DNA of 39,388 bases from a virus. The position numbers and the translations under genes were made by a program. Shown piece by piece: positions 9,495 through 38,858 of this stretch. The notes below the pieces were generated by a model that saw nothing but the letters and a program-made list of their open reading frames with translations, made no database searches and was not told the DNA's origin. How positions within the stretch are numbered: the stretch's first letter is position 1; every line of letters starts with the position of its first letter. The DNA is taken from positions 1 to 39,388 of IMG/VR virus record IMGVR_UViG_3300007539_000055; one strand, given 5' to 3'.

Positions 9495-12400
9495 ATGTCA
9501 GAAGTTATCAATCCCCTGACGGGGTTACCGTTGCAGGGCAGAAATGCTAAGAAGGATGGTCCTGTAAATCCATTTACAAAACAAAACTTTGGTCCCAGGT
9601 TTAGCACAGCCCAGGGACCTTTGTCTACTAGCTATGCACGAACTGGTGACTTCTCTGACTTCTCTAAGTACGGAGTCAACTACTCACCCTTCGCTAACCT
9701 AGAAGAGGAGAGAGCTCGTAACCAAAGCAACTGGGAGAAGGTAGGCAACGGTTTGTACAAAGCTGCCAACACGTTTGTGGGTAGTGCTGCAGAGAACACT
9801 GTAGGTTATGCACTTGGTTTGACTGACTGGGTGATGAGTGGGTTTGAAGACTTTCAAGAGTCTATGACAAACAACCCTGTAGGGGTGTACTTCGACGAAC
9901 GCAACAAGATGTTGCAGGAGGAGATGCCTAACTTCTACACACAGGAGGAGATGGACAAGCAAGGAACGCTTGGGTCGTTGGGTAGTATAAACTTCTGGGC
10001 AGACAAGTTTGCCAACGGTATGGCATACAGCTTAGGTAGTGTAGCTACCATGATGCTGACTGGTGGTACAACTGGATTGGTGACAGGACTTGGTAAAGCA
10101 GCTAAGATTGGGACAGGTGTAAGTAAAGGTCTTGCATCCCTGCATGCAGCAAGAGCTCTGAACGGGGCCAAGAAGTCAGGTGATATCATTAGGAGAGCTG
10201 CTAACATTAAAGCAATGGGTCAAACCAACAGAGCATCAAACGCTCTGGGATACTTGGAGACTGGTGCTATGATGTCCATGGCAGAATCGTCTGTTGAGGC
10301 AAGGGAAGTTAAGAACAGAGTCATTGAGTCTCTGAACCAGCAGGTGATGACAGAGATGGGGCTTGACAGTGTAGATGATATACCTGTATCTGAGAGACGT
10401 AAGATTGAAGAGATCGCAGCTCAGAAAGAAGCCATTGCATTCTACGGTAACATGGGCATACTCATGCCTACAAACTTGGTGATGTTCGGTAAAGGGCTTA
10501 TGCCGTTTACTCCAAAGAGTATGCGCAAAGGTCTTACACACAAGATCGCATCCAAGCCTGGTGAAAGAGCAGGGTGGAGACAGTACACTGAGGCCATTGA
10601 TAACCTGCCTGGATATGCACAAAAAGGAATCAGGGCAAGTAGAGTTGCTTACCCATTCATAGAGAAGGGTGCTACTGAAGCATTTCAAGAAGGGTCACAG
10701 TACGCAATCTCAGAGGGCTTGAACGAAAGAGCTAAAGCCATGTACTCTGAGTATGGTGGGGCTGAAGTAGCTGAGGGTTTGTTGAGAGGGGGCTTGTTTG
10801 CAAAAGCGATTAGAGACTACGAGCACATAGGGAGCACAGCACTTGAAACACTCAACACACCTGAGGGTAGAGAGCAGATGCTTATCGGTGCACTGGTAGG
10901 GATTATCAGTGGTGGTAGAGGTTCTATACAAGCAGGTAAGAGAAAGAGCAAGGCTACAGAAGAAGCTTTGAATGATCTCAACATGGACCCTGAGACATTC
11001 TTCAACCTGAGAGCTAGAGCCAAGAGCTCAGCCATGGGACAATACTACCTAGCACGTATGGATGCCGCACAAGCTAGAGGTGATAAGAAGTCTTACGACG
11101 ACTACAGATCCCGCTTGATGAATGAAAGTGCACTGCTGCACGCAAAGCTCGGTACATACGATCAGTACAAAGAAAGACTGGAGGAACTCAAGGCAATGCC
11201 TGCTGATGAGGTCAGCAAAATTGTGGGTGAAGAAGTCACAGAAGCTGAGAAGCATGAGATGATCAACCAGATCTTGGAAAGCTCAGACAACGTAGTAGAC
11301 AACTACGCAAAGATCTCTGACGCATTCCCAGGCCCAACTCTCCCAACAGGTCTTGCTGGTAGGTTCATGTCCCAGAATGGGCAAGACAATGTCCGCAATC
11401 AGATAGCAGAGAACGAAGCATTGAAGGATGCTTTGCTGTTCTACGAGAGCTCATTGTTTGATACTGACCAAAGGGTAGAGGACATCATCAAAACGTTCGA
11501 GACACTTGACCCAAAGTTTGACGGGGAAAAGCTCCGCAACCTGGTGAGGGAAGAAATGTTTCAGGAGGTGGCTGTATCTGAGAAAGACGGTAAGGTGCAA
11601 ACCCAATACCGCCAGCCTCAAATGAATCCACAGGTATCCGCTGAGATACGGCAGGCACTGCAGGAAGAGATGGATAAGTCCATTAGACGTATCCGATACG
11701 GTAAGAAGAATGATCTTGATTTGCGTAGTGAGTATGTAGGCAAGAACCGTAAGAAGAACCTGGAGCAGGAGAGAGACATCCTCATGAAGTTGTTGGATGA
11801 CAGAACTGTTGCAGCAAAAGCCTACGAGCAGCTCATGACAGACCCTAACGAGAGGGAGCTGTACAAAAAGAGAGCTATAGCTCTGGAGCGACTCGAGGAA
11901 CAAAAGTCCATAGACCAACAGGTTGATGCTACGATTGGGAAGACAGCCACCAGTAAGGAGCTTGTTGTAGCTAGAGACGGGTTGGAGGCTGCTGGAGTAA
12001 GTCCAGCGGCTCTAGAAAAACTTGACGATGAAGCTATAGAAAGAGAGCAGCAGGAGTCAAAGAAGAACAAAGAGTTTGGGGGCATGAAGCTGAGTGACGT
12101 CAAGAAGCTCAACCCAGACGACATGACCCCACTCGAGAAAGCTGTGTGGGAGAAGCACATAAAGAATAGAAGGCAGGAGGAACCTCTGCACAACTTGAAG
12201 TCTAGCGACAAAGCAAAAGCAGACAAGCGGAAGCGAGATGTAAATGAAGCTGCCGAGAGCAGAGATACAGGAGCTGCACTCTCAGAGCAAGAGGGTAAGA
12301 CTCAAGCTAAGGAGCAAGAGGTTGTAGGAGAAGCACAAAAGAGAGCGGTCAGTGACAACTCTAGCCGTATGACCAGAGAGGCTAGGGGCGCTACACTTGT

Positions 12401-15400
12401 GATTGATAAGAATGGTAGAGTGCTGGTAGATGACAGTGGTCAACAGATAAACAAAGATGATTCCACTAATAGGCATACTGCAGATGGTCAGTACATTATA
12501 ACCAACAGAGCATATCTCCATGACAACTTGGAGGGTAAGACTGTCACTATAGTAGTAAGACAGGACACAGACTGGTGGAACAACGAGGCTACACCTGAAG
12601 AGAAGATGGACCCCGCATACAACGTACCTATGTACGTTGAGATAGACGGGCAGGTCGTTGGGGTGCTTGATGCATCAGACTCTCCTATGCGTCAGGTAGC
12701 TTGGGAACAGGCCAAGCAGGGCAATCCAAGAGCAGTCACTACGACTGTATCTAACATGCTGGCTAGCAACATTTTCACTGCAGCCAATAGCGACACACGT
12801 AACCCACACTTCTACAACCCATCAGAAGCACTTGGTCCAAACACCATTGTAGCTGTGATTGGGGAGAACCCTGACACTGAGGGTAAGACAGTAGAGCTGG
12901 GATTGTTCGACGATGGTCTTGCCAAAACAATGACTGCAGAGCAACTGGTGCAGTTGAGAACAGATGTTAATGAGATAGAAGCTAGACTCAACGACGTCAC
13001 TGACAACGGCATGAACATCGCCAAAGGTCAGGTAGTGTTCCTCGTGGCTGACCCTACAGGTAAGCACAGAGTCATTGTAGCCAACACAGCTAACCTTACA
13101 GAAGAGGCTGTGGCAAAGGCCATTGACTATATGAAGGAGGGTAACGAAGCAATGCTCAGAGCTTTGGTTGGTTTGAACGTTGCATACCTCCTTGATGAAT
13201 CAAACGAGCTAGCACTGCAGGACAAGTTCCTGGCTGCTGAGAAGATGGGTGAGACAGGAGAAGCCATCTTCACATTCAGACCCGTAGATAGCAAGGGTGA
13301 ACCTTTGCTTCCTGACGGGCTCATGATGCAGGTGAGCAGTGAGGTCATACGTCGTTGGTATGATGGTAAGAGACGAGGTGACCTGTTGTCACAAGGCAAT
13401 AAGGGTACTGCAGAGGTAATCAACCTTGTAGTCAAGCCTTACAGAAACGATGAGGGTGAGGTCTCGTTTACACCGCTTACAGCTGAGTACACGGATCAGG
13501 CCAAGGAGTTGACAGATAACCTGGACACGATACTTAGAAACGTGCTGTCACGTAAGAAGTTCCAGGTAGACAAGAACCTGTTGAACGGTGACGATACCGG
13601 GCAAAGAATTGTAAACCCACTGAGACCAGAGGCAGAGAACAGCAGTGCTACATACTTCGAGTACCTGACAAACGAAGCTACAGGTGCCCCACGTGACCAT
13701 GGTACTAAAGGTATCCTTGGTTCTACTGCAAAGAATGTAGATGGTAAGACCCCGTTCATTGATATAGGTTTGGAGTTCAGCCCCAAGTTTGAAGTCAATG
13801 GTGAGAAGCAACAAGAAGCTCCCCCACAGACTACGGCTAACAAGACTGACGAGGGTGTATCAGATGTGGTTACCCCATCTCCTGAAACTTCTAGACGTAA
13901 CACAACAGTAGAACAAGACAACGAAGGATTCTCCCCGTTTGCACAGTCACCTATTGGTCAGACAGAGCAGAAGAAGTACGAGCCCTACAACGAGGAGGAA
14001 GCTCGTAGGAAGTACGAAGAGGGTCAGAAAGAACTGGAGGATCTTACTAAACAGTGGGAAGAAGAAGGAAGTCAGGAAGCCGCTGAGCAACTAGAGAGGG
14101 CAAAGAGGGGCATTGCAGAAAGACGCAAGAGAAGAGCCAGCACAATGTATCAGCGTATGCTCGACGAAGGCATACCAGAAGCAGAGGCTAGAAAGACAGT
14201 CAATGAGTCTTTCCCTGACATAAACTTCGTACCAAGACTGATGACATCCTTGGAGTACCAGATGCTGGATAAGCAGAAGGCTGCATCATGGTTGTCAGCA
14301 AGGGGCATACCAGTAGAGTTCTACGAACAGGCTAGACAGATTGGTAATGGATATGTGCACGGATACATGGAGCGTGCAGGTGTCAAACTGTGGACACAAG
14401 GTGAGGTAGGTACAGAATACCACGAAGGATTCCACTTTGTATTCCGCACACTGCTCAGTGACCAACAACGTATGGGGTTGTATGCTGAAGCAATGAAGAG
14501 GTTCGGCAGACCAACCCAAGACGAGATCGGGGCACTCAAGAGAATGTTCCCCGAGCTTAGCACTAGAGAGCTGAGAGAGCTTGCACTTGAGGAGAAGATG
14601 GCGGAGGACTTCCGTGACTATGTGTTTGCTCAGCAAGAAACAGCCAACTCGCTCCCAGGCCGTATCCGTAAGTTCTTCAGAGACTTGTACAACATGATAC
14701 GTGCAATGCTTACAAACCCTGTAGGCATGCGTCAGCTGTACTCTTTGATAGAAGCGAACAATGTTCCTAAGAGCTATGCACGCACAGCAAAGACTTTGGC
14801 ACCACCTGTAGGCGGGGTCAACAGATTCAATGAGCGGTACGCTTCACACAAAGAACTGCACAGAGATCTGAGAGAAACCATAGCTCTGCAGTTTGAGAAA
14901 GACTACCACGATAGGTTGTCAGAGATCAAAGGTGAGTATGGTGAGGTGTCCCCAGCAACAGTCGGTGACATCATCGGTAACAAGAACGACAAGGGGTCTG
15001 TAGCATCATGGTTCTTGAGAGCCAGCATGTCCAATGCAAATGGTTCACAGCTGGACAACGATACATTCGAGTACATCAGATCACTGATCGATGCAGGCCA
15101 ACTGCAGGAGGCAAGAGAGTATATGCAGGAGAACGGCATACAAGACATGCCACACAACGACGTGCATACTGGTACGCTAGGCCTCCCAACAAGCATGCAG
15201 CAGAACATCTCGTTCATGTATCAGGATGTGTACATGAACTGGAATGATCAAAGCACAAACGATCAGTTCGAGAACCCGTTGACTACTGGGTGGAGAAGCA
15301 TCATGCTTGAGTCACTGCAGCAGAAAGGGTATGACGTTAAGCTGATAGATACAGTAGCTGAGTACGAGACAATGTCAGAAGAGCAGCAACAGCACTTCGA

Positions 15401-18400
15401 CAAGATATACGACAAGGGTCAGTTCGAGATGTCACCACTTGACGATGCACGCATGTCTCGCATGGCTCGCATTGCAATCTCTAAGATCAAGTCAGCAGCA
15501 CCCAACAGACTTGGGGTTGTCACTTACGCTAACATGGATACCATTGTCCGTAAAGCAGTTTCTGCAGCTAAGAACCAGCAGAGCACAGACAACATCATGG
15601 ATGCTCTCCGTAAGGCTCAGAGTTTCAACCCAGAGTTGAGACCACTGGTAGACTACTTGGACTCCCCATCTATACAAGCACATGAGCATGCTCTGATCAC
15701 TAACCTGTTTAGACTTGACTACACAACTCACATGGTGTTCGAGCGTGACTTCTCTGATGACAAGAAGAGAGTCTTCAGCTACGACTCAGATAGAATGTCT
15801 CAGGACAGAACGATGCTGGAGCGGTGGAGAACAAACCGTGAGACCCTTGGTATTGAGAACCCAGACGCTTTCTATGTCGAAGATGAGAACGGTAAGCTTA
15901 CTGTTAAGGACGCAGAGGAAAGAGCTAAGCGTATAGAAGAGAGCCGACAGATATACCAAGACCCATCAAGACCTTTGGCTGACAGAGTGGAGGCTATGTC
16001 TGACATGCTGTTCGACTTGGGTCTGAGAACAACTGACTCAAGAGAGCTGTCCAGACAGATACTTAAGACATACATCTCTGCCAAGACAGACGAGATGAAC
16101 CTCGTACGTCAGGGGCAGCTGGATGAGATCGATGTCTTGAAGCAGTTTGCTCAGAAGATATTCATCAACCAGCTGATCGGTAGTGCATTCGACACACGTC
16201 AGATAGGTAACGACATAGGTAAGATCTCCCCCTCTGAAAATGTACGTGACATGTTCACTGCAAGAACACCAAGAGGTAAGAGAATCTATACAGGCATACA
16301 GTACTTGGCCAAAGAAATAGCTCCTCGTATAGAAGCTATGGAGGCCATGGGCTTTGTGGGTGGTGATGGTAAGATGCGTTACGCATACAACCTCCCAACA
16401 CACTTCAACTACCTGATGTCACAGGTAACGAACGGGGATGCTACTTCACTGCACAAGCTGATGGAGAAAGACCCGAGGTTCAGTGTGTATGGTAGAGCAG
16501 AGTTCCAAGACCCGTTCTTCCTGCTGATGAAGAAGAGCAAGTTCACCCCGATGTTTGGTGAGTTTGACGTGGTGAAGAACACATCAGACGAGGTAGGTAA
16601 GACTACGTACAAGACTTTGTTTGAACGTGACTCTCTCATACTTCGCATAGATGCATACCTGAACAGCAACAACCCTACAGAGAGCACAATAGCAGTATCT
16701 ACACAGGAGACTCGTAACAGGCTTACACTTATCAAGGGTCTGCCTAAGCTCACCAAGGCTGGTGCTGCTACTGAGTATGGTATCACCAACTCAGATGTCA
16801 AGACTTACATCCGTAACATCATGGTGCAGGACCTGCTTGGTATTGGTGCAGCACTTGAGACCATAAAGAATGGGGGTGAGTTGATACCTGGGTACCACAA
16901 CAAGTATGGAAAGCAGGATACCACATTCCGTGATACTTACCTGCTTGGTAGAGTGAAGAAAGGCAGCAAGCTTGAAACGTTGGCTAAGAGATTGCACAAA
17001 GCATTCAAGGAGCAAGACGAAGGGGACATGTACAGAGACACCGTCAACGAAGTGATAGGTCTCGCAGAAGAGTTCCATGACAACAACTTCAACAAGGCAG
17101 TCAGTGAGGTCAGGCAGAAGCTCAAGGATTACGGTATCATACGTCAGATAGAAGGCACACAGAAATTCGAGCACAGCTTTGACTCTGCTGGCATCAAGAA
17201 CGAGGGAGGACTTGACTCTGCCATCAGACAGTTTGTGGCAGATGATATGATCTATCGCATCTCAATGTCTAAGACATTCCGTGGTGGAACTCAGATGTTC
17301 AAGGATACAGTAGACTACTTCAAGCGTATGGGCCTGATCAACACACCAGGTAACCGCATGTACATGGAGGGTGACTTCTCTAGAAGCCCGGAGTACGGTA
17401 TGAAGAGAGTCTTCAACACAGCAACCCTAGAGGACTTCACTACATCTGACCCTGTCCATACCGAGATAGCTGCTGGTATAAAGAAAGCCGCTTTGGCAAA
17501 CGGAGCTACGGAAGAAGAGGCAGACGGGATGGCCAAGAGATACATGACTGGGGTAGCAAATGCTACTGACGCACAGGGTATCATCTCCCCAGCATTCGCT
17601 CGTAAGATCGAACAGGGTAATGGTAGATGGACACCAGAACAGGAAGAGTGGTACAAAGAGTTCGACAAAGCTGGTTCTAACATAGCAGCTGCTATGGGTA
17701 AGTGGAAGGCAGAATACACTGCACCTTACAAGTTCTACTACGAGAACCTCAAACTGCACGGAGGCAACACACTTACCATCGAAGCAGACAAGAACTCATA
17801 CTTCGTACTGACACCTGAGATTGCTGCACAGAGTGATGTGCTGGGACGGTTGTACGAACGTATGATGGACCCCACTGCACCAATTGATTTGGTCAACTTT
17901 GTTACAGGCAAGAAGGGCAGCAAGGAAAGAGCTGTACCATACGAGCAGTTCTTGGAGATGAAGAACGAGCAGGTCATCGTGCAGCAACAGGGTGAGAGAT
18001 TGCTGATGCCTCAGAACATAGCAGACAAGGGTACTGACGTTGTGAGATTGAACAAGCAGATCACCAAGAGTACACTCATGCTTGTCAACCCAACTGACAC
18101 ATACGTGCTCAACTACGGTACAGACATACAGTCCGAACCAATATCTGGGTTGGAGATTAAGGAGCGATTCCACAACTCATTCAAGGAGCTTCAGAGAAGA
18201 GCAATGCAAGAGCTCAAGGAAGAGCTGGGACTTGACGAGGTTGACCCAAGAACAGGTTTGATACCTGAGGACAAAAAGGTGGAGGCCCTCAAAAAGATGC
18301 GGGACGTGTTCCTGAGAAACAAGATGGAGAGAGACCAGCTTGATGAGAACATAGAAGCTCAGCTTAACATCATAGCTGACCCGATCACCAACGAGGTGGA

Positions 18401-21158
18401 CTTCGCTCTCCCACTTGGCTTCCCAACATACCTCAAGGAGTACGAGAACTTGTTCTTCTCTATGTTCCGTACCAGAGTGTTCAAGATGTTCATGAAGGGT
18501 AAGGAGATGGTGCAGGTTGCAGCGCCTGGTACGTTCAATGTGTTCAACTACGAGACAGGTGAGTACGAGAAGAGAGAGCTGAGATACCTGAGTGTGGATG
18601 ACAACGGGTTTACAAGACATGCTGAGGTTATGATCTCACCAGACATAGCCAAGAAGTATGGTCTCAAGCCTGGAGATAACTTGTCAGAGATACCTGAGGA
18701 GTTGAGACGTATGGTGATGTACCGTATACCACACCAGGGTAAGTCATCGACAGTGATAGCCAAAGTGGCAGGTATACTCCCAAAGTCTCACAAGAAGACT
18801 GTGATGGTGCCAGCCAACATTACCGAACAAACGGGTTCTGACTTTGACATCGATAAGATGTTTACCATGTTCCCTGAGTTCAGTGGTAGTGCAAGAGAAG
18901 GATTCACAAAGGATGCAATAGACCCACTGCTCCCATTGGAGATGCAGTCTGAGTCAGCCATACGTAACAGCATGTTGGATATCATAGAGGCCATCTCTAT
19001 GTCACCCAACCACACTGTAGAAACGTTCAAGCCTCTGAACACAAACAGACTTGAGGCGTTCACTAAAGATGTACTGAAGAAGGACCTGCTTAAAACAGAC
19101 TACCCATTCTGGCACCCACTCGTAGAGATAGAGATGGAGCAGAAGTTTAAGTCATCTGCAACAGGTGTGGGTGTGTATGCAAAAGCCATGGCAGGATATG
19201 CAATTGCCAGCCAGGGTGAAGTTGTACAAGACGGTAAGCAGGGTACATCTGTTAACGGTAGGTCTCACTTCACACTCAATGGTGTGTCAAGAACAGGCAT
19301 CAGATCATCTAGAGCTGTGGCAGGATACTTCCAAGAGAAGCTGTCTTCACACCTCGATGCGGGTAAGACTCCTATCCCTGGTTTGACAAACGACAACAAG
19401 TTCACACACGCAGCTACAGTGTTCTTCGGTTCTTTCATGACAGATGCAACAGTCAACGATGACCTTGTAGCAATAGAAGGACTCATGAACATACCATCAG
19501 TCCTCAAGTTTGTGGAACTGCGTAAGGGTATCGGTAGTGAGACAGGACCTCTCAGTGTAAAGATGGCATTGAAGGAGATGGGTATCAGCTTCATGGACCA
19601 GAAGCAGATGAAAGCTAAGACTCGTATACAGAGTTTCACAAAGGACGATGTACTCAGTGTGTTGCAGAGTGCACGCCGAGCTGGTAAAAAGGGGCTGCAA
19701 GGCGAGGCCAAAGAACTCGAGAACAAGCTGTTCAACAACTTTGCAATCGGTCTGATGAGGGGTGAAGAACTGCAAGAGTTCTACGAGATCATTGCACCTG
19801 ATACCCTGGATGGGTTGGGTGAGATAGGGGAGATACAAGGATACCTTGGCAAGCTGCAGAAGTATTCTAAGAATACAAGCCCCATCATCAGCATGGGTGC
19901 TGTACAACAGTTCTTGGTGGACAACCAGTTCGGTATATCACAGTCGTACTACAACTTGATAACCGAAGTACTGTCCCTCTCCAACAACTACTTTGGTTCA
20001 TCTAGCCAGTCTATGAACAACTTCAAGACGAGGGTGATGGAAGCTGTAGGTACAAGAGACTTTAGTGCTGCCCAGCACAGAGCAGTCAACCGTGCAGCGT
20101 TCTACTGGATGATGACCAGACCAGAGTTTGTGAGCATCAACGGGAAGCAGACAGACATCAATCCGTTTGCTGATATGCTTACAACCGAGAGAGCGAAGGA
20201 GCTATTCCTGGACAAGAGAACCAACATAGCAGCCAAAGCTGCTAGGCTCAGAAGAGCTGTACCTAGACTGCAAGACAACTACGTAATCTCCAGGATAGCG
20301 TCAGTGAAGACCACAAAGAAGAGCAGAACGTTTGGTGTTGAGATGAACAACATAGACGACAAGTCTACGGACATGCGTAACCTGATGAAGAGGGACTTCC
20401 AGGAACTCTTGGAGAATCCAAGGAAGTATACCTCTGACCCAAAGCTGCAGACAGCCATCAAGGAGTTTGCTGAGGACCTCATCTTGAACTCACTGGTTAG
20501 AACTGGTGCATCTCCTACGTTCGGTTCGTACTTCGACAGCATACCTGTAGAGTACTTCATGACAAAGAGACGCTCTGAGCTCAAGGATCAGAACGGTACA
20601 CCGCTGTTCCCTACAGCTGCAGAGTTCGTCAGACGTCAGATGAGCAGAGCTCAGAACAACCCACAGTACTTCGACCCATTCTTGTTCGAGTACATGAGAA
20701 CCTACGGACTCTCCACAGTTGATGGTAGAGACTTGGTTCAGACTGTTGGGTACGACACCAAGAAGCTCAAGGGTATGTTCAAGAAGAACGCTGACGGTAC
20801 GTTCAGTGCAAAGAAAAACCCAGATGCATACCCAGTGTTCATCAAGGTGCGCAACATAGGGTCAAAGAAAACTGACAGGTATACCCTGCTGCAGAGAAAG
20901 AGCAAGTACACCTGGGAGCCTGTACAACAGAAGAGTATCAATGGTAAGTTGTTTGAGGTTAACTTGCGTGATGAGAGTGGGACAACCTCAGGAACCAGCA
21001 GTATCATAACTGCACAAGCAAACAAGGACGTTACCAGAACCGGTGCAAAATCTATGGCAGGTTATGCTGTAGAGATGTTGAATGCACAGACAGAGAAAGC
21101 GATAGATGACTTCGAGGAAATGAAGCAGGTAATGTCCATACAAAAAAAGTGTGAATAA
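9495..21158 (+). CDS. Giant virion-packaged DNA-dependent RNA polymerase (crAss-type) with zincin-like metallopeptidase domain
   Basis: A 3,887-residue multidomain protein. The polymerase assignment rests on D3116-F-D3118-I-D3120-K, the Mg-binding motif of the beta'-type double-psi barrel in crAss-like virion polymerases (phi14:2 gp66 family). It is preceded by a conserved-looking stretch, R3077-I-P-H-Q then VAGILP. A Lys-rich segment around 2800-2870 (FVTGKKGSKER, NKQITKST) could be the beta-type barrel. Upstream, H1643-E-G-F-H1647 is an HExxH zincin motif, with EEKMAEDF at 1699-1706 offering a third Glu ligand. Other parts are a hydrophobic Gly/Thr-rich region (about 163-205), a second hydrophobic stretch (about 461-478), a charged linker (about 830-955), a beta-rich block (about 965-1430) and a Pro/Thr/Glu linker (about 1436-1540). 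phi14:2 gp66 is about 2,180 residues, so the extra N-terminal half looks like fused cargo modules. Role: carried in the virion, ejected, and transcribing early genes. The polymerase call is firm; protease activity is inferred. Confidence 0.92.
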   Translation: MSEVINPLTGLPLQGRNAKKDGPVNPFTKQNFGPRFSTAQGPLSTSYARTGDFSDFSKYGVNYSPFANLEEERARNQSNWEKVGNGLYKAANTFVGSAAENTVGYALGLTDWVMSGFEDFQESMTNNPVGVYFDERNKMLQEEMPNFYTQEEMDKQGTLGSLGSINFWADKFANGMAYSLGSVATMMLTGGTTGLVTGLGKAAKIGTGVSKGLASLHAARALNGAKKSGDIIRRAANIKAMGQTNRASNALGYLETGAMMSMAESSVEAREVKNRVIESLNQQVMTEMGLDSVDDIPVSERRKIEEIAAQKEAIAFYGNMGILMPTNLVMFGKGLMPFTPKSMRKGLTHKIASKPGERAGWRQYTEAIDNLPGYAQKGIRASRVAYPFIEKGATEAFQEGSQYAISEGLNERAKAMYSEYGGAEVAEGLLRGGLFAKAIRDYEHIGSTALETLNTPEGREQMLIGALVGIISGGRGSIQAGKRKSKATEEALNDLNMDPETFFNLRARAKSSAMGQYYLARMDAAQARGDKKSYDDYRSRLMNESALLHAKLGTYDQYKERLEELKAMPADEVSKIVGEEVTEAEKHEMINQILESSDNVVDNYAKISDAFPGPTLPTGLAGRFMSQNGQDNVRNQIAENEALKDALLFYESSLFDTDQRVEDIIKTFETLDPKFDGEKLRNLVREEMFQEVAVSEKDGKVQTQYRQPQMNPQVSAEIRQALQEEMDKSIRRIRYGKKNDLDLRSEYVGKNRKKNLEQERDILMKLLDDRTVAAKAYEQLMTDPNERELYKKRAIALERLEEQKSIDQQVDATIGKTATSKELVVARDGLEAAGVSPAALEKLDDEAIEREQQESKKNKEFGGMKLSDVKKLNPDDMTPLEKAVWEKHIKNRRQEEPLHNLKSSDKAKADKRKRDVNEAAESRDTGAALSEQEGKTQAKEQEVVGEAQKRAVSDNSSRMTREARGATLVIDKNGRVLVDDSGQQINKDDSTNRHTADGQYIITNRAYLHDNLEGKTVTIVVRQDTDWWNNEATPEEKMDPAYNVPMYVEIDGQVVGVLDASDSPMRQVAWEQAKQGNPRAVTTTVSNMLASNIFTAANSDTRNPHFYNPSEALGPNTIVAVIGENPDTEGKTVELGLFDDGLAKTMTAEQLVQLRTDVNEIEARLNDVTDNGMNIAKGQVVFLVADPTGKHRVIVANTANLTEEAVAKAIDYMKEGNEAMLRALVGLNVAYLLDESNELALQDKFLAAEKMGETGEAIFTFRPVDSKGEPLLPDGLMMQVSSEVIRRWYDGKRRGDLLSQGNKGTAEVINLVVKPYRNDEGEVSFTPLTAEYTDQAKELTDNLDTILRNVLSRKKFQVDKNLLNGDDTGQRIVNPLRPEAENSSATYFEYLTNEATGAPRDHGTKGILGSTAKNVDGKTPFIDIGLEFSPKFEVNGEKQQEAPPQTTANKTDEGVSDVVTPSPETSRRNTTVEQDNEGFSPFAQSPIGQTEQKKYEPYNEEEARRKYEEGQKELEDLTKQWEEEGSQEAAEQLERAKRGIAERRKRRASTMYQRMLDEGIPEAEARKTVNESFPDINFVPRLMTSLEYQMLDKQKAASWLSARGIPVEFYEQARQIGNGYVHGYMERAGVKLWTQGEVGTEYHEGFHFVFRTLLSDQQRMGLYAEAMKRFGRPTQDEIGALKRMFPELSTRELRELALEEKMAEDFRDYVFAQQETANSLPGRIRKFFRDLYNMIRAMLTNPVGMRQLYSLIEANNVPKSYARTAKTLAPPVGGVNRFNERYASHKELHRDLRETIALQFEKDYHDRLSEIKGEYGEVSPATVGDIIGNKNDKGSVASWFLRASMSNANGSQLDNDTFEYIRSLIDAGQLQEAREYMQENGIQDMPHNDVHTGTLGLPTSMQQNISFMYQDVYMNWNDQSTNDQFENPLTTGWRSIMLESLQQKGYDVKLIDTVAEYETMSEEQQQHFDKIYDKGQFEMSPLDDARMSRMARIAISKIKSAAPNRLGVVTYANMDTIVRKAVSAAKNQQSTDNIMDALRKAQSFNPELRPLVDYLDSPSIQAHEHALITNLFRLDYTTHMVFERDFSDDKKRVFSYDSDRMSQDRTMLERWRTNRETLGIENPDAFYVEDENGKLTVKDAEERAKRIEESRQIYQDPSRPLADRVEAMSDMLFDLGLRTTDSRELSRQILKTYISAKTDEMNLVRQGQLDEIDVLKQFAQKIFINQLIGSAFDTRQIGNDIGKISPSENVRDMFTARTPRGKRIYTGIQYLAKEIAPRIEAMEAMGFVGGDGKMRYAYNLPTHFNYLMSQVTNGDATSLHKLMEKDPRFSVYGRAEFQDPFFLLMKKSKFTPMFGEFDVVKNTSDEVGKTTYKTLFERDSLILRIDAYLNSNNPTESTIAVSTQETRNRLTLIKGLPKLTKAGAATEYGITNSDVKTYIRNIMVQDLLGIGAALETIKNGGELIPGYHNKYGKQDTTFRDTYLLGRVKKGSKLETLAKRLHKAFKEQDEGDMYRDTVNEVIGLAEEFHDNNFNKAVSEVRQKLKDYGIIRQIEGTQKFEHSFDSAGIKNEGGLDSAIRQFVADDMIYRISMSKTFRGGTQMFKDTVDYFKRMGLINTPGNRMYMEGDFSRSPEYGMKRVFNTATLEDFTTSDPVHTEIAAGIKKAALANGATEEEADGMAKRYMTGVANATDAQGIISPAFARKIEQGNGRWTPEQEEWYKEFDKAGSNIAAAMGKWKAEYTAPYKFYYENLKLHGGNTLTIEADKNSYFVLTPEIAAQSDVLGRLYERMMDPTAPIDLVNFVTGKKGSKERAVPYEQFLEMKNEQVIVQQQGERLLMPQNIADKGTDVVRLNKQITKSTLMLVNPTDTYVLNYGTDIQSEPISGLEIKERFHNSFKELQRRAMQELKEELGLDEVDPRTGLIPEDKKVEALKKMRDVFLRNKMERDQLDENIEAQLNIIADPITNEVDFALPLGFPTYLKEYENLFFSMFRTRVFKMFMKGKEMVQVAAPGTFNVFNYETGEYEKRELRYLSVDDNGFTRHAEVMISPDIAKKYGLKPGDNLSEIPEELRRMVMYRIPHQGKSSTVIAKVAGILPKSHKKTVMVPANITEQTGSDFDIDKMFTMFPEFSGSAREGFTKDAIDPLLPLEMQSESAIRNSMLDIIEAISMSPNHTVETFKPLNTNRLEAFTKDVLKKDLLKTDYPFWHPLVEIEMEQKFKSSATGVGVYAKAMAGYAIASQGEVVQDGKQGTSVNGRSHFTLNGVSRTGIRSSRAVAGYFQEKLSSHLDAGKTPIPGLTNDNKFTHAATVFFGSFMTDATVNDDLVAIEGLMNIPSVLKFVELRKGIGSETGPLSVKMALKEMGISFMDQKQMKAKTRIQSFTKDDVLSVLQSARRAGKKGLQGEAKELENKLFNNFAIGLMRGEELQEFYEIIAPDTLDGLGEIGEIQGYLGKLQKYSKNTSPIISMGAVQQFLVDNQFGISQSYYNLITEVLSLSNNYFGSSSQSMNNFKTRVMEAVGTRDFSAAQHRAVNRAAFYWMMTRPEFVSINGKQTDINPFADMLTTERAKELFLDKRTNIAAKAARLRRAVPRLQDNYVISRIASVKTTKKSRTFGVEMNNIDDKSTDMRNLMKRDFQELLENPRKYTSDPKLQTAIKEFAEDLILNSLVRTGASPTFGSYFDSIPVEYFMTKRRSELKDQNGTPLFPTAAEFVRRQMSRAQNNPQYFDPFLFEYMRTYGLSTVDGRDLVQTVGYDTKKLKGMFKKNADGTFSAKKNPDAYPVFIKVRNIGSKKTDRYTLLQRKSKYTWEPVQQKSINGKLFEVNLRDESGTTSGTSSIITAQANKDVTRTGAKSMAGYAVEMLNAQTEKAIDDFEEMKQVMSIQKKCE

Positions 21159-36338: not shown

Positions 36339-36677
36339 TTATTTAAACACCATAGTTATCTCCACCCCTCTGACGTTCATGGTAATGACATCAGATACCG
36401 TCGTAGCCTCCTTCTTTTGGTAACTGATTACCTCAGCTTTAGAAGTCTTAGGCTTGACAGACTTGGGTGGTGTGGGTGTCTGGTACCCACGGCTCAACAA
36501 TGTGTAGTATCTGCCCTTGATTTGATGAGGAGTGAGCAGAATCCTGTACTCTTGCTTGATCCGCCTTTGGACCTGCAGAGTTGCTTCGTGTTGAGTTGTC
36601 TTGCCTCTGTTGACAAGAGTGCTCATGATCATATAGTCCATATGATCGTCATAAGGTGCAATGGTTTTTGCTTTCAT
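36339..36677 (-). CDS. Hypothetical protein
   Basis: A 112-residue protein whose start overlaps the SF2 helicase stop (ATGA). Residues 10-60 look like three helices with many Gln/Arg (TTQHEATLQVQRRIKQEYR, then TPHQIKGRYYTLLSRG), compatible with a small DNA-binding fold. A Pro/Lys-rich linker (TPPKSVKPKTSK) and a short beta tail follow. No named family. Five bases separate it from the next gene. Confidence 0.65.
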   Translation of the reverse strand: MKAKTIAPYDDHMDYMIMSTLVNRGKTTQHEATLQVQRRIKQEYRILLTPHQIKGRYYTLLSRGYQTPTPPKSVKPKTSKAEVISYQKKEATTVSDVITMNVRGVEITMVFK

Positions 36678-37927
36678 TTTAGATAGTATTGTAGGTCTTC
36701 ACCCTTTTGAACATTAGTTATTTTCTTAGTGGCTTCTTTTAGCCATTTCTCTTCCTGCGAATCGATCATGTAGAAGATGAAGATCTTACCGACCTTGTCC
36801 CCATCCTTACGAATGATTCGTCCCATACGTTGTATCAAAGGCAAGGACTTGCTGTCCAAGCCTACGATGATACCAACACCAACATCAGGGACGTCAGTGC
36901 CTTGGTTCAGAGCTTTTGTAGAACACAGGATTCTTAGCTCTCCACTAGCAAATCGAGACAACATGTCCTCCCTCTGCTTCTTAGTCTTACCAGAGTGATA
37001 GCTCTCACCACCCAATCTCTGAGCTGTAGCATCTGCAAACTTGTTTGTGCCACCGAAGGTTAGGATCTTCTCCTTGTCGTAGAAGTCAGCAACTTCTCGT
37101 GCACCGTTAAGTTTACTGCTAGCCTCTTGGATAACCTTACGCCTACCACGTACAGCATTCATGTACTGTGCAGCTGCGCCTACGTTACCCTTGATTGTAC
37201 CAGCTAGAATACCACTGGCTTTTGTCCATGCATCGTGACCACCCAGTGCCATCTTCATCTTGACGAACATCTTCTGATGCTTGTTATACTCTTCCCTTTC
37301 ATCAGGATCGAGCTCGAGTCCAATGCACACAAGCTGATACTCTGCGACATAGCCAGCCTTTACTGCCTCATCCAAAGTAATCTTGTAGCATACAGGTGCT
37401 AGGTTGACTAGCATTGTACGATACTCAGGGTTCTCTGGTATAGTTGCAGTGAGACACATCAGCCTATTGTACGTGTTCTTCTCAAAGAACTCACTGTACA
37501 CAGGTGACAAGCCCAGGTGTATCTCATCACACACGACGACATGATAGTGCTTACCCTCCAGCTTGTGAGCTGACTGATAGCACATAAAGTCAATGCGGTC
37601 GAGGTAGTCCTCGAAGCCCCACTTGATAAACTCTTTGGGGAACTGTTCCTGCAACTGTGTTGTGGGTACAAGAACTAGGCACCGTGCCTCAGTATCTTCC
37701 AGTTCATCAAGACTATTACCAATAGCGAGAACGGCAACACGAGATTTCCCAAAGCCAGTAGCAGCAATAATGCTGCCTTTAAACCCTTTACGGGCCCAGC
37801 TGTTGAGTGCTTCTCTTTGTGCTCCATCTCTTGATACTGCCTTGCCTTTGGTTACTTGCTTGTTGATCTCTTTCATCATTCTACGAGCTCGTCTTATCTC
37901 AGTCGGGCTGACTTTCACGTATTTCAT
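36674..37927 (-). CDS. SF2 DEAD/DEAH-type helicase (DEIH box)
   Basis: A 417-residue superfamily 2 helicase. The motifs are all in order: Walker A ATGFGKSR around 56-63, motif Ia LVLVPTTQL, motif II D134-E-I-H137, motif III TAT at 160-162, motif V STKALNQGTDVPDV at 335-348, and motif VI Q365-R-M-G-R369-I-I-R372 with the arginine fingers. The layout resembles phage UvsW/RecG-like or Rad25-type DNA helicases, which remodel forks, D-loops and R-loops. No extra nuclease or zinc domain is attached. It sits near the head of the replication operon. The start overlaps the preceding gene by 29 bases. Confidence 0.9.
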   Translation of the reverse strand: MKYVKVSPTEIRRARRMMKEINKQVTKGKAVSRDGAQREALNSWARKGFKGSIIAATGFGKSRVAVLAIGNSLDELEDTEARCLVLVPTTQLQEQFPKEFIKWGFEDYLDRIDFMCYQSAHKLEGKHYHVVVCDEIHLGLSPVYSEFFEKNTYNRLMCLTATIPENPEYRTMLVNLAPVCYKITLDEAVKAGYVAEYQLVCIGLELDPDEREEYNKHQKMFVKMKMALGGHDAWTKASGILAGTIKGNVGAAAQYMNAVRGRRKVIQEASSKLNGAREVADFYDKEKILTFGGTNKFADATAQRLGGESYHSGKTKKQREDMLSRFASGELRILCSTKALNQGTDVPDVGVGIIVGLDSKSLPLIQRMGRIIRKDGDKVGKIFIFYMIDSQEEKWLKEATKKITNVQKGEDLQYYLK

Positions 37928-38132
37928 CTTCTATTTCTTCTTCCAAGAACCTAATGATGTCGGGATCAAAGGCTTGCTCTGGTTTAATTTCAATATCCAG
38001 TATGGATATTTCAGGATGTATGGTAGGTGTGTAATAGTCCCCATGTTGACCGGGGATAACCTCATACTTTACCTTGATGTCCAAGGGTCCGATGTCGGAG
38101 TCTATCTGTGTCTCCCAAAAACGCTCTTTCAT
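37899..38132 (-). CDS. Small acidic hypothetical protein
   Basis: A 77-residue protein. The first half is beta-like (VKYEVIPGQHGDYYTPTIHPE), and the second half is acidic, ending in a helix FLEEEIEDEIRES. The outline (beta strand, Pro/Glu-rich turn, acidic final helix) is common among small phage proteins of unknown function. It overlaps the helicase start by 29 bases. The lead before its ATG is A-rich (AGTAGAAAATG). Confidence 0.65.
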   Translation of the reverse strand: MKERFWETQIDSDIGPLDIKVKYEVIPGQHGDYYTPTIHPEISILDIEIKPEQAFDPDIIRFLEEEIEDEIRESQPD

Positions 38133-38241
38133 TTTCTACTACTCTTATATTTAGTCTAACAATTTGCCTCTTCAATGCACTGAGGTCTCTTCTTACTAGC
38201 TCCACCTCAGACCGGAGCTTCTGGCATTCCGTCAAATTCAT
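38062..38241 (-). CDS. Small coiled-coil ORF (59 residues)
   Basis: A short ORF (ATG at 38241, TGA at 38062-38064) bridging the DnaA-like and acidic-protein genes. Residues 9-34 have hydrophobic side chains at L9, V13, V16, L20, L23, I27, L30 and V34. That is an unbroken 4-3 heptad pattern, as in a leucine zipper, with charged residues elsewhere (RSEVELVRRDLSALKRQ). It fills the 74-base gap between the two annotated genes but overlaps the downstream gene by 71 bases, which counts against it. Its short length explains why it is easily missed. Function unknown; dimerisation or partner binding is likely if it is made. Confidence 0.45.
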   Translation of the reverse strand: MNLTECQKLRSEVELVRRDLSALKRQIVRLNIRVVENERAFLGDTDRLRHRTLGHQGKV

Positions 38242-38617: not shown

Positions 38618-38632
38618 GTTGGAATCGTTTTG

Positions 38633-38705
38633 TGCGCCCTGCAGGACTTGAACCTGCGACCGGATGATTATGAGTCATCTGCTCTAACCACTGAGCTAAG
38701 AGCGC
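38633..38705 (-). tRNA. tRNA with CAU anticodon (Met or, more likely, Ile2)
   Basis: A 73-base cloverleaf. The acceptor GCGCTCT pairs with AGGGCGC, with a U5-G68 wobble. The D arm is GCTCAGTGGTTAGAGC, the anticodon stem GATGA/TCATC has loop CTCATAA (anticodon CAT), and the T arm is GCAGG TTCAAGT CCTGC. CCA is not encoded. The initiator features (GGG/CCC anticodon stem pairs) are absent. The body strongly resembles E. coli ileX tRNA-Ile2 (TTAGCTCAGTGGTTAGAGCAG, GGTCGC) and C4-G69 is kept, so decoding of AUA after lysidine modification is plausible. Confidence 0.93.
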
Positions 38706-38736: not shown

Positions 38737-38784
38737 ACCTGTAATTGAATGAAACACGTCTGAGCTGTTATCGCCTCACACGCG

Positions 38785-38858
38785 TACCCCGGGCGGGACT
38801 CGAACCCACAACCTACAGCTTAGAAGGCTGTTGCACTATCCAGTTGTGCTACCGAGGC
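38785..38858 (-). tRNA. tRNA-Arg (UCU anticodon)
   Basis: A 74-base cloverleaf. The acceptor GCCTCGG pairs with CCGGGGT, with G-U pairs at the end and at position 4. The D arm is GCACAACTGGATAGTGC, the anticodon stem ACAGC/GCTGT has loop CTTCTAA (anticodon TCT), and the T arm is GTGGG TTCGAGT CCCGC with discriminator A. CCA is not encoded. It reads AGA and AGG, and AGA is visibly the favoured Arg codon in the giant genes. It overlaps the end of the upstream gene by 10 bases. Confidence 0.95.

Follow-up and report, generated by a model that had tools for sequence, protein, structure and literature searches.

Between a gene for a DnaA-type DNA-binding protein and a gene for a 77-aa protein, in a virus record of 39,388 bases that was analysed at its full length (the window), lies a 59-codon open reading frame (ORF) whose predicted product carries a leucine-zipper heptad, raising the question of whether this ORF is a gene and what such a product might do. 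The ORF was found with the position and length given in the original prediction, which had named no strand; it is read from the minus strand, and an in-frame stop precedes its ATG by three codons. It had been described as spanning the only sizeable gap in this part of the operon. A free gap does exist there, but it is just 74 nt long, and 106 of the 180 nt of the ORF (59%) are shared with the neighbouring genes on its two sides (Table 1), overlaps that the description had not mentioned.

Table 1. Features of the window at and around the small ORF.
Feature	Position	Strand	Details
Small coiled-coil gene (candidate)	38062..38241	-	59 aa; ATG at 38241, stop ends at 38062
Stretch exclusive to the small gene	38133..38206	-	74 nt; basis of the codon test
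Overlap of the small gene with the tail of the DnaA_C-type gene	38207..38241	-	35 nt
Overlap of the small gene with the start of the 77-aa downstream gene	38062..38132	-	71 nt
Heptad segment L9-V34 (d a d a d a d a)	38140..38217	-	Sequence; AlphaFold2 helix of residues 3-55
Most conserved segment, residues 24-32 (KRQIVRLNI)	38146..38172	-	Alignment of 20 members
Upstream gene, 136 aa	38207..38617	-	Bac_DnaA_C helix-turn-helix, PF08299, E 1.9e-12, 47.4 bits against a cut-off of 31.5
Downstream gene, 77 aa	37899..38132	-	Conserved; AlphaFold2 three strands and one helix, mean pLDDT 82.7
SF2-type helicase (Helicase_C, ResIII)	36674..37927	-	Next after the 77-aa gene in the arrangement
tRNA-Met (cat)	38632..38705	-	Upstream of the DnaA_C-type gene
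tRNA-Arg (tct)	38784..38858	-	Upstream of the DnaA_C-type gene
RIIA lysis inhibitor-like, 901 aa	28878-31583	-	PHROG 612, E 6.9e-22

Residues L9, V13, V16, L20, L23, I27, L30 and V34 occupy heptad positions exactly as had been claimed, and a run of eight was reached in 36 of 20,000 residue shuffles of the small ORF. The accompanying argument, that such a run is unlikely by chance in a non-coding frame, was overstated. Among the 240 window ORFs of at least 40 aa, runs of at least seven were found in 13 and runs of at least eight in six, the small ORF included; the five others, with runs of 8 to 11, are shadows of larger ORFs, either in another frame or on the opposite strand, ruling out the heptad run alone as proof of a gene. 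Because runs of at least eight recur in shadow frames of the window, the heptad by itself is weak evidence, and the coding status of the ORF is settled by its relatives instead. The heptad segment of the small ORF has a hydrophobicity of 0.46, against 0.59-0.72 in the five shadow-frame ORFs, and three of its four g-e' pairs are attractive with none repulsive, compared with none of either kind in each of the five; its freedom from Pro and Gly is shared with one of them. The shadow-frame runs, together with the large overlapping share of the ORF, would suit a reading in which the ORF is a chance product or a non-coding element, acting in translation coupling or through RNA structure, with the heptad a by-product of the overlapping frames.

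The helicase, DnaA_C protein, downstream protein and small ORF each served as query for relatives in IMG/VR. This yielded contigs in which the DnaA_C gene is followed by the small ORF, then by a gene of some 73-85 aa and then by the helicase. The helicase alone as query gave 15 loci, 11 of which hold the small ORF (L001-L011, the contig of L010 not reaching the DnaA_C gene); in L012 and L013 the neighbours are present and the small ORF is absent, L014 has a different neighbourhood, and L015 holds the helicase end only. The family profile, A5, was made from 20 members including the window, leaving out L001, L002, L008-L011, L025, L043 and L048 as near-identical in the small ORF, while L039 and L049 were not read for it. 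This profile matched 24 of 29 records, that of the window included, once each (E 3.5e-19 to 4.9e-33), a proportion that is not an unbiased frequency because many of the loci were found using the small ORF as query. The five records giving no A5 match are those of L012, L013, L014, L053 and L055, and three of them (L012, L013 and L053) have both the DnaA_C gene and the downstream gene. The frame is kept wherever the ORF was compared: none of the 21 sequences (window, L001 and 19 others) is interrupted between its ATG and the one stop at its end, and 3-15 stops break up each of the remaining two forward frames. Six records flagged with one stop in the profile search (L007, L008, L024, L025, L026 and L047) have intact ORFs, and for L042 and L047 the start codon was set at an internal ATG, GTG or TTG starts that give a longer ORF being possible. 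In bacterial and archaeal genomes, 35 pattern matches yielded none confirmed as a relative. Among annotated phages, the small protein of L054 gave E 3-5 matches in five records, four of them to portal proteins and the fifth unannotated, and the DNA region matched at tRNAs with nothing at the ORF among the 20 of 643 matches listed. Nothing recognisable on the small gene was found in the literature, of which subscription journals were poorly covered.

Synonymous-biased change, the second expectation raised for this ORF, was present in most informative pairs when the stretch exclusive to the small gene was compared, a short stretch comprising 24 codons in the closest pairs and at most 29 nt in 6 of the 20 members. 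Between the window and L003, 15 of 72 bases differ, 8.5 counted as synonymous and 6.5 as nonsynonymous, where random placement of the substitutions gave a mean of 4.4 synonymous (P 0.0085). Placing the observed substitutions at random, a synonymous excess at P < 0.05 was obtained in 9 of 15 pairs, and for L054-L057 none of 2000 placements reached the observed excess. Four of the six non-significant pairs are nearly alike (window-L001 with three differences, L003-L004 with none, L003-L005 and L004-L005 with one each), and L003-L054 was also non-significant (P 0.087). L056-L057, with four nonsynonymous changes and no synonymous one, is an exception to the bias, and counting by amino-acid differences left L003-L057 (P 0.28), window-L057 (0.056) and window-L056 (0.051) also short of the 0.05 level. 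Nei-Gojobori dN/dS over the exclusive stretch was 0.15 for window-L003, 0.07 for L065-L068, 0.09 for L054-L070, 0.11 for L054-L056, 0.12 for L054-L057 and 0.23 for L038-L047, all of them pairs in which dS is finite and synonymous changes number more than one; synonymous sites were saturated in L065-L070, and L003-L005 and L068-L069 have one synonymous change each. Pooling three disjoint pairs, chosen from ten, gave pS 0.56 and pN 0.11 (Fisher P 5e-11).

The overlaps could be examined for which of the two frames is the better kept. In the upstream overlap, the 26 differences of three disjoint pairs (window-L003, L024-L028 and L068-L069) fall 8/3/15 on codon positions 1/2/3 of the small frame and 15/8/3 on those of the DnaA_C frame; by these counts the small frame is better kept than the DnaA_C frame in the three pairs. 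For L024-L026 the two frames come out almost equal (3/2/4 against 4/3/2), L003-L004 points the opposite way (0/3/1 for the small frame against 1/0/3), L003-L005 has two differences and L028-L007 has none. Neither frame dominates overall in the downstream overlap, from which L028-L007 was dropped as out of register via an indel, and for window-L003 the downstream gene dominates there (0/0/3). The small gene of L056 is intact without any overlap. As judged by codon comparison, the small frame is under purifying selection. The low dN/dS of six pairs, the lead of the small frame in the upstream overlap of three pairs, the complete and overlap-free gene of L056 and the matches in most of the records already contradict the chance-ORF or non-coding reading, which we consider hardly credible. 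A hidden coding gene with a leucine zipper, as originally proposed, is thus supported by frame conservation and synonymous bias in relatives, and on this comparative evidence the small ORF is almost certainly a selected protein-coding gene.

The architecture of the product was examined in the 20 sequences, aligned on an invariant R-Q (R25 and Q26 of the window protein) and with L, I, V, M, F and Y taken as hydrophobic. The eight a/d positions at offsets -17 to +8 are hydrophobic in 65-100% of sequences, and 10 of the other 18 positions of this span are never hydrophobic. Hydrophobic residues outside a and d are found at +2 (b, V28 in the window) in 20 of 20 sequences, at +6 (f, I32) in 19 of 20, at -11 in 60%, at +5 in 45% and at four further positions in 15-35%. 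Exceptions within the core are Gln at -13 in 7 of 20 sequences, Gln at -10 in L024, His at -17 in L026, and a polar residue at -6 or -3 in members of the L006/L042/L047/L038 group. Of 80 g-e' pairs, 48 are attractive and none is repulsive, these cells being non-independent in that the 20 sequences cluster into about five sets of relatives. With this spacing applied to the remaining six registers, 3 attractive and 33 repulsive pairs of 360 were counted, with just two of these registers joining two surface positions (120 pairs, holding all 36 charged ones). The g-21/e-16 pair, D-K or E-R elsewhere, is reversed to K-E in the L024/L007 group, and the g-14/e-9 pair, otherwise E-R or E-K, is reversed to R-E in the L006/L042/L047/L038 group. 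This charge pattern with its swaps is what parallel, in-register self-association predicts. AlphaFold2, run on 16 sequences as a monomer model that cannot show oligomer state or direction, returned one helix with a mean pLDDT of 98 over residues 11-30, dropping to 59 and 52 in the last two blocks of the small protein.

From these sequence features, it is very probable that the 59-aa product is one long helix associating with itself in parallel and in register; that the ORF is a gene and its product such a self-associating coiled coil, taken jointly and leaving aside any role, we hold to be likely with good confidence. The N-terminal two thirds of the helix would form the oligomer. The peak of conservation is not the zipper as a whole but the segment [KR]RQ[ILVM][VI]x[LV], with its extra hydrophobics on the outer face; hydrophobic at b and f, on the outside, as well, this segment may form a second contact surface, which would dock a partner or stack dimers into a larger bundle. 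The conserved C-terminal DRLRHR tail was not accepted as a functional motif: it lies opposite IDSDIG of the downstream gene, all three window-L003 differences in this overlap are at third positions of that gene, and L056, where the overlap is missing, has the tail in a loose version only.

Pairing with a different protein was weighed against self-association. The partner of the helix could be a helical part of the DnaA_C-type protein, such as the extension present in L054, L056 and L057, or of another phage protein. The two genes are adjacent and mostly overlapping, and one DnaA_C type has a helical-looking C-terminal extension, as judged by eye; however, a single sequence paired with itself in parallel register accounts for the g-e' charges, two swaps included, and the small gene accompanies DnaA_C types both with and without the extension, leaving hetero-oligomerisation improbable. 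The extension, again by eye, was seen in L012, L013, L053, L054, L056 and L057, the last three of which also have a separate small gene while the first three do not. A fused coiled coil ("Rosetta stone") in L012, L013 and L053 was considered and rejected, a similar extension (by eye) together with a separate gene being carried by L054, L056 and L057.

Going by database searches, no named family of PHROG, Pfam or PDB fits the small protein. The best values for the window protein were E 0.18 in PHROGs and E 0.015 in Pfam (15.7 of 30 bits), and no significant, consistent family match was obtained. PHROG 7330 (82 positions) resembles the family in that 7 of the 20 members match it weakly (best E 0.0028); the window protein, by contrast, is unmatched at E 0.1, and the match may be one between coiled coils that reflects composition only. 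At E up to 1, the family profile matched 26 PDB sequences, 14 of which name GCN4 (the best of these at E 0.018), and its top match, to mitochondrial ribosomal protein S15 (E 0.0061), is probably due to chance. The small family is like GCN4/bZIP zippers in having mostly Leu at d, aliphatics at a and opposite charges at g and the next e, and favourable g-e' salt bridges are described in PMC4335062. Unlike them, the small protein has no basic DNA-binding region and has a second conserved hydrophobic surface at b and f. The likeness is one of sequence pattern, with no homology shown. A bZIP transcription factor was discarded as a candidate: the window protein has eight residues before L9, one of them basic, and the longer N-termini of relatives are without a basic region by eye.

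What the small protein might do has to be read from its surroundings. Further genes on the same strand match a DnaB-like helicase, a Sak4-like annealing protein, a primase, an exonuclease, RIIA and a uracil-DNA glycosylase, and the region therefore looks like the replication region of a tailed phage. For the 77-aa downstream protein, no sequence family was found, and fold searches gave none at E <=0.001 in PDB (best 0.34) or in a viral fold library (best 2.6e-3, an uncharacterised Caulobacter phage protein). Because the small gene sits between a DnaA-type DNA-binding protein and an SF2 helicase, an oligomer of the small protein could serve as an adaptor in the replication or early-gene module of the phage, a role we propose tentatively. 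The 136-aa upstream protein has a DnaA-type helix-turn-helix and no room for an AAA+ domain, and in a bolder and unlikely version the phage initiator is split, with the small gene as its detached oligomerisation module. If so, the small coiled coil would supply the multimerisation by which the DnaA_C protein marks the phage origin and brings in the SF2 helicase, one run of nucleotides would code for both the end of a DNA-binding protein and the body of its oligomeriser, and the arrangement would be one disallowed by the overlap limit of a standard gene caller.

Phage proteins having only the DnaA C-terminal helix-turn-helix were observed in L003, L006, L024, L042, L047, L054, L070 and the window; those tested against Pfam were the proteins of the window, of L012 (just below the cut-off) and of L013, and a search of annotated phages with the DnaA_C protein gave 12 records with a best E of 1e-3. 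The DnaA_C proteins at this site fall into three or more highly divergent types, whose identity can be as low as 16-20%, and exchange seems to have taken place immediately before the small gene. Identities of the small protein and its neighbours are discordant. Between L070 and L054 the small proteins are 79% identical and the DnaA_C proteins 17%, between L068 and L006 the DnaA_C proteins are 79% identical and the small proteins 29%, and between L056 and L057 the small proteins are 77% identical and the downstream proteins 27%. Over 19 loci, in which pairs are non-independent, identities correlate at 0.53 for small and DnaA_C proteins, 0.69 for small and downstream proteins, and 0.64 for DnaA_C and downstream proteins. 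By these identities, the small gene is exchanged as a unit between phages. The discordance supports an independent gene and weakens the notion of a tightly co-adapted adjacent partner.

Small host-directed phage genes are often exchanged on their own, and the small gene is exchanged alone among differing DnaA_C types and downstream genes in the three pairs given above. This pattern would also fit a host-directed early protein, whose coiled coil binds a host replication or transcription protein, such as host DnaA, and not a phage neighbour. YabA, an initiation control protein of low-GC Gram-positive bacteria, offers a comparison through its small size, N-terminal heptad helix and DnaA context. 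According to PMC4705661, the N-terminal domain of YabA consists of an extended helix that has an L/V/I heptad and belongs to a four-helix bundle, and the isolated C-terminal zinc domain (one His and three Cys) binds DnaA or DnaN. The small protein of L007 gave a sub-threshold YabA match (E 0.035). However, this match is far under the cut-off (15.1 of 30 bits), the window protein and that of L006 have no match to PF06156, and identity with YabA was rejected. The zinc domain, to which that source attributes binding, is absent from the small protein, and C6 is the only Cys of the window protein. The position of the gene between replication genes is kept as well, and a host-directed role appears possible but rather doubtful. 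For this phage group, the finding extends the DnaA-like/helicase replication module by a small, putatively oligomeric protein.

Small overlapping phage genes are short, overlap their neighbours on the same strand and are easily missed by length or overlap limits. Compared with such genes generally, the small family has a downstream overlap of 62-95 nt in a single phase in all 19 overlapping members. For L006 the overlap is 71 or 92 nt depending on the start chosen (3745 or 3724), both above 60, and the downstream start of L038 was taken as 1371 or 1368. The limit that Prodigal sets for the overlap of genes on one strand is 60 bp, as given in PMC2848648. Since the downstream overlap exceeds this limit in 19 of the 20 members, the limit may explain why the small gene was overlooked, although Prodigal could instead keep the small gene by picking a later start for the downstream gene. 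The small gene would thus represent a conserved family that ordinary annotation tends to drop. Should phages often have overlaps of this kind, small conserved proteins may be systematically lost as a class, and such genes could be found by relaxing this one overlap limit.

The tRNA-Arg(tct)/tRNA-Met(cat) pair lies upstream of the DnaA_C gene in five of eight relatives scanned (L005, L006, L024, L042 and L047); at the same place L070 has tRNA-Arg only, L056 has tRNA-Lys and L054 has none. The helicase matched 87 annotated phage records, all below 60% identity, of which 29 are named for Flavobacterium and 27 for Bacteroides; the 20 of the 87 matches listed are Flavobacterium phages at 28.5%. The gene set of the window may point to a Bacteroidota host and crAss-like kinship. 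A 3887-aa ORF on the plus strand (9495-21158), with no Pfam match at E 0.01, contains GSDFDIDKMF, which we take to recall the metal-binding motif of crAss-like phage RNA polymerases.
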